Positions 1 to 11,146 of a stretch of 27,304 nucleotides of DNA are shown here, piece after piece. Position numbers and translations under genes: made by a program. The stretch lies in IMG/VR virus record IMGVR_UViG_3300030012_002538, positions 1 through 27,304 of that record; one strand, written 5' to 3'. This DNA comes from a virus. The notes under the pieces were generated by a model. It worked only from the letters and a program-made list of their open reading frames with translations, made no database searches and was not told the DNA's origin. The stretch's first letter is position 1, and each line of letters starts with the position of its first letter.

Positions 1-287
1 TCCTCACTGTTATATGCTGTGCCTCTGACCGAAGTGATTCCAGGATTTATGAATGCTTTTACTTGTTCATCACCAACATTCCAAACTACAACATTCTGTC
101 CCGCAATTTGAGTGGTTCTATATTGGAAGATTTTAGGCATTTCGCTTATATGACATACAGGTACCCAAACTTTTGCAAATATTTCTTCTTGTTCACGTAG
201 ATATATGCTATGGTTATTGTAGCATTCGCTGCTAATATATTCTACCTTTGGCTTTTTTAACCATTGACTATGATTACGCGGCGGCAT
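1..287 (-). CDS. Rieske-type ring-hydroxylating oxygenase-like protein, N-terminal part (cut by window edge)
   Basis: An open frame runs from ATG at 287 off the left edge, about 95 codons. GGAGG at 294-298 lies 6 nt before this ATG, and the frame overlaps the end of aprB by 14 nt, so the two are translationally coupled. The translated part resembles the N-terminus of Rieske oxygenase large subunits: a run like REQEEIFAKVWVPVCH, then a beta-rich part with IAGQNVVVWN and VKAFINPG. In that family the next motif is C-x-H-R-G, which binds the [2Fe-2S] cluster. Here the aligned stretch reads ITSVRGTAYN, with no Cys or His. Either the cluster has been lost or the resemblance is only to the fold. The catalytic domain is outside the window. 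Family call moderate, function unknown. Confidence 0.6.
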   Translation of the reverse strand, partial: MPPRNHSQWLKKPKVEYISSECYNNHSIYLREQEEIFAKVWVPVCHISEMPKIFQYRTTQIAGQNVVVWNVGDEQVKAFINPGITSVRGTAYNSE

Positions 288-750
288 TCATATCCTCCCA
301 TTTTTTAAATTTATCTTTTGTGATACTTCTTAATTCACCTGCCTTCAGATAATCTGGTTCGTGTGCTAATTTTTGACTATCACGCATCGTGTCGTCTGGC
401 ATATCATATTCGGCAGGACCTTGAATACTATCCCACGGCGTTGTTCTGATAGGACTTTCAAAATGTTTTTCCCTACCATCTCTAAACTTTAAACGCCAGC
501 TAATCACGCCTTTTTCTGGTTCTCGTAATACTCTGACCTTATGACCCATTGGCGCAAAGTCTGAATATCCTCTATCATCAATCGCGTTTTGTGGACAAGC
601 CTTCACACAGCTATAACATTCCCAACAGAAATTAGGTTCAATGTTAACTGCTCGTCTTGTTACTGGATCTATATGCATAATGTCTGATGGACAGATATCG
701 ACGCAATGGCCACATCCATCACAAGCTGTCATATATACAAATGTCGGCAT
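274..750 (-). CDS. aprB: Adenylylsulfate (APS) reductase beta subunit, ferredoxin-like
   Basis: 158 aa, full length for AprB. In the known enzyme AprB passes electrons between AprA, which interconverts APS and sulfite plus AMP, and a membrane partner. Two 4Fe-4S motifs are intact: C10-x2-C13-x2-C16-x3-C20-P and C42-x2-C45-x2-C48-x3-C52-P. The family hallmarks CWECYSCVKACPQNAID, RGYSDFAPMG and IRTTPW are present, as is the long C-terminal tail that wraps around AprA. This separates it from a generic ferredoxin. The start is supported by AGGAGG 5 nt upstream. It sits directly behind the phage tmRNA and before a Rieske-like gene; aprA is not adjacent, although in bacteria aprB normally precedes aprA. 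Inference: a host-derived auxiliary metabolic gene whose product could pair with host AprA. Confidence 0.88.
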   Translation of the reverse strand: MPTFVYMTACDGCGHCVDICPSDIMHIDPVTRRAVNIEPNFCWECYSCVKACPQNAIDDRGYSDFAPMGHKVRVLREPEKGVISWRLKFRDGREKHFESPIRTTPWDSIQGPAEYDMPDDTMRDSQKLAHEPDYLKAGELRSITKDKFKKWEDMNAAA

Positions 751-769
751 TAATTCCTCCTGTTAAGTT

Positions 770-985
770 GCCGGATTCTGTTTCCAAGCTCCGGCGGGCT
801 CATCAGCATTATGCCGCTATGGCGTAACCTGTAGGTGCAACGTTATCGTTTGCATTTACTTTTCGAAGACTCAAACATCAGTCGATCCTATTTCGCCCCC
901 ATAAGCATCCACCGATGGTGGATATTGGTGGAGGCGTCGGGTACCGCCCCCGAGTCCTGTCTGCCCTCTAACATCTTCTATTCTA
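770..985 (-). ncRNA. ssrA: Circularly permuted (two-piece) tmRNA
   Basis: Read on the minus strand, the acceptor piece comes first and ends in CGCCTCCACCA at 936-926, with an encoded CCA. A 25-nt intervening segment (925-901) containing a TCCACC/GGTGGA hairpin follows, then the coding piece begins GGGGGCG at 900-894. GGGGGCG and CGCCUCC form a 7-bp acceptor stem with the G3-U pair that marks alanine identity. A T-type arm, TCGGG-GGCGGTA-CCCGA, precedes the 3' strand. GAGTC in the coding piece can pair with GACTC in the acceptor piece (helix P2). GGATCGAC follows the 5' strand, as in other tmRNAs. The tag frame is at 853-809. A GCCGGA/TCCGGC hairpin at 770-795 probably closes the coding piece. 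The outer ends are estimates. Permuted tmRNAs are known in alphaproteobacteria, some cyanobacteria and some betaproteobacteria. Confidence 0.9.
809..853 (-). other. tmRNA tag-peptide reading frame
   Basis: From the resume codon GCA at 853 the frame reads ANDNVAPTGYAIAA and then TAA at 811-809. ANDN at the start and a small hydrophobic end in AA are the features recognised by the trans-translation and Clp protease machinery. The ANDN start is typical of alphaproteobacterial tags. The last four residues are AIAA rather than the common ALAA. Confidence 0.88.
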
Positions 986-991
986 TTTATA
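984..991 (-). promoter_or_regulatory. T4-type late promoter for tmRNA-aprB
   Basis: A perfect TATAAATA lies at 991-984, just downstream of the sigma-70-type -10. By analogy with T4, where the start lies about 6 nt after the box, transcription would begin near 978, still before the tmRNA acceptor piece. The unit may therefore be expressed both early and late. Confidence 0.6.
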
Positions 992-996
992 ACATT

Positions 997-1025
997 ATTA
1001 TACCACATATTTTAGAGTAAGTAAA
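997..1025 (-). promoter_or_regulatory. Sigma-70-type early promoter for tmRNA-aprB
   Basis: The -35 TTTACT is at 1025-1020, the spacer is 17 bp, and the -10 TATAAT is at 1002-997. It belongs to the same promoter family as those before uvsX, gp43 and gp45. Transcription would start about 990 and run into the acceptor piece of the tmRNA. Confidence 0.75.
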
Positions 1026-9952: not shown

Positions 9953-11146
9953 TCATACTCTATATGAAGTTACAAAAATTTTACCGATATAAGTTTCAAT
10001 GGCTGCACCTACGCCTGAACCTGGTTGAAACTTATAACCAAGATCAGCCAAAGTTAGTTCCACACCTGATAGCACCTGTAACATCATTGTTTCGTTAAGC
10101 CAGCCTAAGTGCCCTATACGAAAAACATTACCATTCAATGGACCTAAACCAGCACCAAGTGATATGCCGTACTTATGATACGCGTGTTCAATTACTTGAT
10201 TTGCGTCTATCTTATCCATCGTGTTAACTGCTGTGACTGTATCAGAACAGGTTTCTTTATTAAATGGCTGTGTATATAAACCCCAACGCTCTACTGCCTT
10301 TCTAACACCTGATGCAATTTTACGATGCCTTGCCCACACATTTTCTAATCCTTCTTCTAATAGCATGTCTGTAGCGGTACGTAGACCACGCATCAGTGTC
10401 ATTGCTGGTGTGTAAGGAAAGTAGCCAGTTTCATTAGCATTCAGCATGGTACCAAAATCATAGTACTTAAATTTTGCTTTCCATTTATTGCCTTTCATAA
10501 TCTTACATACACGTTCACTTAGTGCAACAACCACTAGACCAGTTGGCATCATAAAACCTTTTTGCGAACCAGCAATCGCAACATCCACGCCCCAAGCATC
10601 ATGTTCGTATTCAATACAACCGATACTTGAGATACCATCAACCATCAAAAGTGCTGGATGATCAAGTTCATTCAACATGTCTCTAACTGCTTTTACATCG
10701 CTGGTAACACCACTTGCTGTTTCATTCTGGCAAACCATTACTGCTTTAATTTGTTTGTCTTTATCAGCTTCAAGTATTTCACGATAACGTTCTAAAGGTG
10801 TTGCTTCACCCCAAGTGCATTCAACATCATCAACCATGAATTTCATATCATGACACATCTGCACCCACAATTTACTAAACTGACCTATCTGACTAACTAG
10901 TACACGATCGCCTTCAAACAATAAGTTTTCTAATCCTGCTTGCCAACCACCGGTACCAGTTCCTGGAAATACAACCACACTACCAGTTTTAGTCTTGAAT
11001 ACTTTCTTAAGATCTTCCATCAATGGTTGAACAAATCCTGGTAAATCAGGAGCCCTATGATCTTCGGTAGGTATGTACATGCTTTGTGATATTCTGTTCG
11101 GAACATTAGTGGGTCCCGGTACAGCGAGTGTTCTATTACCAATCAT
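9953..11146 (-). CDS. Serine-glyoxylate aminotransferase (class V, PLP)
   Basis: 397 aa, full length. Predicted reaction: serine plus glyoxylate to hydroxypyruvate plus glycine; alanine-glyoxylate activity is possible. Landmarks are PGPTNVP at the N-terminus, the PLP-nitrogen Asp170 in LMVDGISS, the PLP-binding Lys196 in AGSQKGFM, ANETGYFPYTPA, and GAGLGPLNGNVFRIGHLG. The overall pattern is closest, by memory, to alphaproteobacterial SgaA rather than to phosphoserine aminotransferase or NifS. It overlaps the upstream gene by TAATG and is followed by the glycosylase gene after 1 nt. This is an unusual phage metabolic gene with no sign of decay. Confidence 0.85.
   Translation of the reverse strand: MIGNRTLAVPGPTNVPNRISQSMYIPTEDHRAPDLPGFVQPLMEDLKKVFKTKTGSVVVFPGTGTGGWQAGLENLLFEGDRVLVSQIGQFSKLWVQMCHDMKFMVDDVECTWGEATPLERYREILEADKDKQIKAVMVCQNETASGVTSDVKAVRDMLNELDHPALLMVDGISSIGCIEYEHDAWGVDVAIAGSQKGFMMPTGLVVVALSERVCKIMKGNKWKAKFKYYDFGTMLNANETGYFPYTPAMTLMRGLRTATDMLLEEGLENVWARHRKIASGVRKAVERWGLYTQPFNKETCSDTVTAVNTMDKIDANQVIEHAYHKYGISLGAGLGPLNGNVFRIGHLGWLNETMMLQVLSGVELTLADLGYKFQPGSGVGAAIETYIGKIFVTSYRV

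Follow-up and report, generated by a model that had tools for sequence, protein, structure and literature searches.

A putative two-piece tmRNA gene without pseudoknot PK1 in a genome fragment of a T4-like phage

Introduction

Phage-encoded, circularly permuted two-piece tmRNAs have been published for Melnitz and marine T4-like phages (PMC9004378). Specifically, Melnitz (MZ577097) and related pelagimyophages such as Mosig carry a two-piece ssrA gene (PMC9004378), and in the accompanying survey ARAGORN classed 53 of 133 unique phage tmRNAs as two-piece, 50 of these 53 coming from marine or aquatic samples (PMC9004378). In the tmRNA database of 2025, 79 sequences come from bacteriophages (PMC11915505). 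As permuted phage tmRNAs are already on record, the gene described here does not represent a new kind of tmRNA.

The pseudoknot PK1 was long regarded as required for tagging by tmRNA, until later E. coli mutants pointed to a role as a stabiliser only. E. coli tmRNA in which PK1 is swapped for a hairpin or for single-stranded RNA stays active in tagging (PMC4236655, PMC3968760); deletion of PK1 abolished tagging in E. coli according to Nameki 2000, as that work is cited in PMC3968760. Since the PK1 replacements still tag, function is compatible with the loss of PK1. A natural, widespread PK1-less class that keeps a selected tag, helix H2 and a 3' pseudoknot offers a test of the smallest working tmRNA.

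Results

The window, that is, the whole stretch of 27,304 nucleotides that was analysed, corresponds to the 27.3-kb IMG/VR virus fragment IMGVR_UViG_3300030012_002538. Judged by its sequence, it is a piece of a T4-like phage genome. The tmRNA gene is surrounded by a T4-type replication block that comprises a gp41-like helicase, UvsX, clamp, clamp loader and SbcC/SbcD (gp46/47), together with a RegA-type translation repressor and thymidylate synthase. The gp43 DNA polymerase shares at most 53% identity with that of any named phage, the top match being Phage C48C1, for which no host is given; no permuted tmRNA was found in the record of Phage C48C1, and no paper on it in the open-licence literature.

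Directly downstream of the tmRNA gene lies an AprB-like gene (Table 1), whose Shine-Dalgarno sequence AGGAGG (761-756) starts 5 nt past the tmRNA match, and the two are probably carried on one transcript. This tmRNA-aprB order recurs in loci L232-L235, L241 and L249, and AprB relatives at 78-99% identity are found in 20 viral loci, 6 of the 20 with a tmRNA immediately upstream. The AprB-like gene is a possible auxiliary gene of sulfur metabolism. In many sister phages, a gene beginning MPPRNH or MAPRNH comes straight after the tmRNA. Elsewhere in the window, the 319-aa protein that is the first of a tandem pair had no match in Pfam or PHROGs.

Table 1. Features of the tmRNA locus and of selected genes in the window
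Feature	Position	Strand	Basis or remark
Rieske-domain oxygenase start (MPPRNHSQW...)	3-287	-	Pfam Rieske 9.6e-5; after aprB
AprB-like gene (APS reductase beta subunit)	274..750	-	Pfam APS-reductase_C 1.7e-25 and Fer4
Coding piece	766..900	-	RF01849 match to 766
3' H-type pseudoknot	770..802	-	Stem b re-paired across 45 dereplicated relatives
Pseudoknot stem a (UGAGC/GCUUG)	802-798/789-785	-	
Pseudoknot stem b (GCCGGA/UCCGGC)	795-790/775-770	-	
Tag reading frame ANDNVAPTGYAIAA and stop TAA	809..853	-	Sequence; codon variation in phage relatives
Single strand, 11 nt	864-854	-	Between H2 and tag
H2 3' strand UCUUC	869-865	-	Within coding piece
Acceptor 5' strand GGGGGCG	900-894	-	Opens coding piece, then D-loop-like segment
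25-nt spacer with hairpin, ATATCCACCATCGGTGGATGCTTAT	901..925	-	Sequence; fold
Acceptor piece	926..978	-	RF04321/RF01849 alignments; covariation in H2 and T stem
H2 5' strand GAAGA	978-974	-	Within acceptor piece
T4-type late promoter octamer TATAAATA	984..991	-	Sequence; position kept in relatives
Sigma-70-type promoter, extended -10 (TTTACT-17-TATAAT, TG before -10)	997..1025	-	Consensus scan; -10 (TATAAT) at 1002-997
Class-V aminotransferase	9953-11146	-	
Two tandem related proteins, 319 and 328 aa	18524-20445	-	

A preliminary description, made from the letters of the window, had placed a circularly permuted phage tmRNA at 770-985, and its coordinates were right. On the minus strand, Infernal matches positions 766-984 to RF04321 (tmRNA_permuted) with 90.5 bits (E 1.8e-16; gathering cut-off 47 bits) and to RF01849 (alpha_tmRNA) with 88.8 bits (E 4.4e-23; gathering cut-off 50 bits), both far beyond chance. 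The order that it had proposed, with an acceptor piece, a 25-nt hairpin spacer and a coding piece, is recovered in full (Table 1), and its two boundaries are exact: the final A of CCA falls on 926, and GGGGGCG starts at 900. The tRNA-like domain is complete, with T arm, acceptor stem, G3-U70 and CCA. Specifically, the acceptor piece contains a T arm of UCGGG GGCGGUA CCCGA, followed by the acceptor 3' strand CGCCUCC and ACCA, and ends in ...CGCCTCCACCA. The stem GGGGGCG/CGCCUCC pairs across the spacer at every position, as the description had held, including the G3-U70 wobble, which is the alanine identity pair. The tmRNA strand folds better than 200 of 200 dinucleotide shuffles (z = -3.5). Covariance models, covariation, related loci and the T4-like neighbourhood agree on a phage-encoded permuted tmRNA of the alphaproteobacterial type. 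The tag does start with ANDN, from which the description had drawn a pointer to the host; tag and tmRNA type alone do not fix the host, because Melnitz infects an OM43 methylophile and yet carries an alphaproteobacterial-type ssrA (PMC9004378).

The most unusual feature of the gene is the absence of PK1, which the preliminary description had passed over, as it had the tandem sigma-70/T4-late promoter. The linker from GATCGAC to the resume codon measures 27 nt, with 11 unpaired nucleotides left after the H2 strand UCUUC; by this count there is no room for PK1 between H2 and the tag, where RF01849 places it. Linkers elsewhere reach about 62 nt in the Rfam alphaproteobacterial consensus, 64 nt in Sinorhizobium meliloti and 62 nt in Melnitz (for the last, a manual count on the sequence). 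In E. coli, residues 79-89 separate PK1 from the resume codon (numbering of PMC4236655), and the single strand in the window has the same length as this segment. Four groups of linker lengths (27-28, 37, 42-46 and 59-68 nt) emerge among viral contigs that share this core. ARAGORN reports no tmRNA in the window, a silence that is attributable to the missing PK1 and not to a false tmRNA call: it detects 0 of 45 dereplicated relatives with a linker of at most 37 nt, 33 of 45 with a linker of 42-46 nt and 96 of 125 with a linker of at least 47 nt. Since all 45 short-linker genes escape it, published phage tmRNA counts based on ARAGORN are too low. The PK1-less phage subclass is apparently unreported in the open-licence literature.

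Conservation among relatives extends to both structure and tag. When 29 distinct PK1-less sequences are aligned, pairing in the consensus structure holds for 99.6% of cells, compared with 92% (maximum 93.6%) when the 3' letters are shuffled. Both-sided changes are present in H2 and the T stem of this alignment; the 9 pairs that show them only equal the maximum of 500 shuffles, and the double-change count taken alone is a weak measure of covariation. Stem b of the 3' pseudoknot, in turn, has been re-paired in many different ways among 45 dereplicated relatives. The last two Ala codons of the tag were compared over 173 distinct phage frames: with one GTA as the exception, they differ at the third position only, with 1.75-1.97 bits at position 3, 0-0.05 bits at positions 1 and 2, and all four GCN codons in use. 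The peptide end of the tag is therefore under selection. The short-linker class, taken by itself (24 distinct frames), likewise shows purifying selection on the frame and on the C-terminal residues of the tag. In the relatives as a group, the frame has its resume Ala codon and a hydrophobic ...AA end under selection, and the AIAA end of the window's tag is common to other phages.

The motifs ahead of the tmRNA form a tandem sigma-70 and T4-late promoter. TATAAT precedes the acceptor piece in 23 of 30 dereplicated relatives with linkers of at most 28 nt and in 13 of 14 with a linker of 37 nt. Of 207 dereplicated relatives, 163 have the octamer TATAAATA between -85 and -60 relative to the CCA end; its background frequency in short-linker loci would predict 0.0036 per interval of this kind. 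At the usual spacing of T4 late promoters, with the start 6 nt downstream, the late transcript would begin with the first base of helix H2, at about 978. The Melnitz paper put its emphasis on an early promoter (PMC9004378); since the late promoter is conserved, the RNA is likely to act in the late phase too and not in early host takeover alone.

The PK1-less class appears to occur almost only in viruses, as far as a pattern search can tell. The short-linker pattern (linker of 18-46 nt, exact 17-base core and ANDN tag start required) matched at least 119 viral stretches and, in genome_contigs (84,980 prokaryote species), a single one; since it demands the exact core and ANDN, a PK1-less gene of bacteria whose core differs would escape it. 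The one exception, L218 on a small Opitutia MAG contig, might be taken for a cellular PK1-less gene; this 8.2-kb contig, however, carries phage-type genes and a phage-class tmRNA, and is more likely a misbinned viral contig. When the gene was compared by BLASTN with 50,697 phage records, a 42-nt stretch of RcXuper was the sole match at E<1e-5; raising the limit to E 10 added nothing but short matches at chance level, so that by this search the class was not found among annotated phages.

The relatives also vary in spacer and tag. Among related short-linker loci, spacer length runs from 9 to 388 nt. Many of the related phage tmRNA genes have a long spacer (up to 388 nt) that holds a small protein reading frame (L218:292-431, L184, L164, L209; L179/L195/L214/L153/L213; L169/L177; L129; L154; and Melnitz, L342, MZ577097), that is, a protein gene nested between the tRNA-like halves. 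One example is a 38-aa family beginning MKHYxxWFKKLYREYGL...; between L218 and L209, the frame shows 19 third-position changes and 7 and 9 changes at positions 1 and 2. The Melnitz spacer has a Shine-Dalgarno sequence and a frame starting MFKWLSK. Additionally, a sister PK1-less tmRNA (L020, L058, L069, L101, L184) encodes a tag that is strongly basic and, at 31 aa, over twice as long as usual: ANDNVAQPKFMKKRNTFARKVGFTKG(M/T)ALAA.

Discussion

We regard it as probable that the window holds a genuine, selected two-piece tmRNA gene of the alphaproteobacterial type, which belongs to a PK1-less subclass in a T4-like phage and acts by ribosome rescue. The best-supported reading is that the tmRNA would rescue ribosomes in aid of phage translation, both early and late in infection. 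Specifically, a precursor would be made early and then again late in infection, and the spacer, for which removal by tRNA-type processing is expected, would be cut out by host tRNA-processing nucleases. The acceptor stem and H2 would hold the two pieces together, and host AlaRS would charge the molecule via G3-U70. Host SmpB and EF-Tu would subsequently bring it to ribosomes that have stalled on broken messages, where translation would resume at GCA and a AANDNVAPTGYAIAA-type tag would be added, and host proteases would destroy the tagged product. The likely gain for the phage is that ribosomes are kept circulating in the mRNA-rich, mRNA-decaying late phase. We infer trans-translation by this tmRNA from its sequence features. 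SmpB is presumably that of the host, because 16 phage records (up to 156 kb, several of them fragments) yielded none in a search that was positive in 10 of 14 control genomes; host EF-Tu, AlaRS and processing nucleases would be needed too. In a broader sense, we lean slightly towards the view that T4-like aquatic phages have evolved their own PK1-free, tag-bearing tmRNA class, which is driven by tandem promoters, absent from cellular genomes, missed by ARAGORN and capable of full trans-translation.

An alternative that we consider unlikely is that the tag mainly serves to redirect proteolysis, so that host or selected proteins are destroyed early and amino acids are recycled or defences removed. 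This idea has been put forward for Melnitz (PMC9004378), and both the sigma-70-like promoter and the selection on a degron-like C-terminal tag end are compatible with it. However, tmRNA, which works on ribosomes that have stalled, cannot single out host proteins, and the dominant conserved promoter is of the late type (163/207), with TATAAATA present at the Melnitz gene as well. Less probable still is a decoy or dominant-negative tmRNA that loads SmpB and ribosomes and tags poorly, thereby weakening the host's trans-translation or protecting phage proteins. Such a role would be in line with the missing PK1 and has a precedent in the tag-less tmRNA of mycobacteriophage DS6A, which inhibits endogenous tmRNA in E. 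coli (PMC11915505), but the selection on the tag frame of the short-linker class (24 distinct frames) would be needless for a decoy. That we are looking at a host gene in decay or taken up passively, without a role in infection, as might be supposed from the ssrA pieces known from imprecise prophage excision (PMC9004378), is highly improbable and largely refuted by the compensatory changes and the synonymous-only codon change, the more so as structure, tag and promoter are kept by many diverged phage relatives and the short-linker pattern search found no PK1-less copies in bacteria, one contig apart.

Several known systems come close to this gene. With the Caulobacter/Sinorhizobium-type RF01849 it shares the permuted order, the GGCGGUA T loop, the ANDN tag, the GGGGGCG...AAATAGGATCGAC start and the 3' GGAAACAGAA pseudoknot; it departs from the Rfam consensus, and from Sinorhizobium meliloti with its 64-nt linker and tag ANDNYAEARLAA, in that those two retain PK1 and have a 5' acceptor extension of greater length. 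The Rhodobacter phages RcXuper, RcSimone-Hastad and RcRudolph and the Ruegeria phage vB_RpoS-V10 carry unannotated permuted tmRNAs with an alphaproteobacterial-type tag like that of the window, but these are detected by ARAGORN, and the three Rhodobacter phages have 65-nt linkers with PK1 present; TATAAATA was not found in the stretches of these four phages that were read. The tmRNA of RcXuper (L222/L219, 3259-3561; tag ANENFAPMEMRLAA) adjoins a tRNA cluster, and that of vB_RpoS-V10 (tag ANINNAPMEMAIAA) lies just downstream of a GOLLD RNA (L343:59-492; 151 bits against a cut-off of 150). Melnitz differs from the window by its 62-nt, PK1-containing linker and its detection by ARAGORN, where the window has a 27-nt linker without PK1 and is missed, by a spacer longer than 25 nt, and by a glutamine riboswitch 3' of the gene, for which the surroundings of the window gene gave no match even at E up to 5. 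Window and Melnitz are alike, in turn, in that each represents a T4-like marine phage with a permuted, alphaproteobacterial-type tmRNA, an ANDN... tag and TATAAATA just ahead of the acceptor piece.
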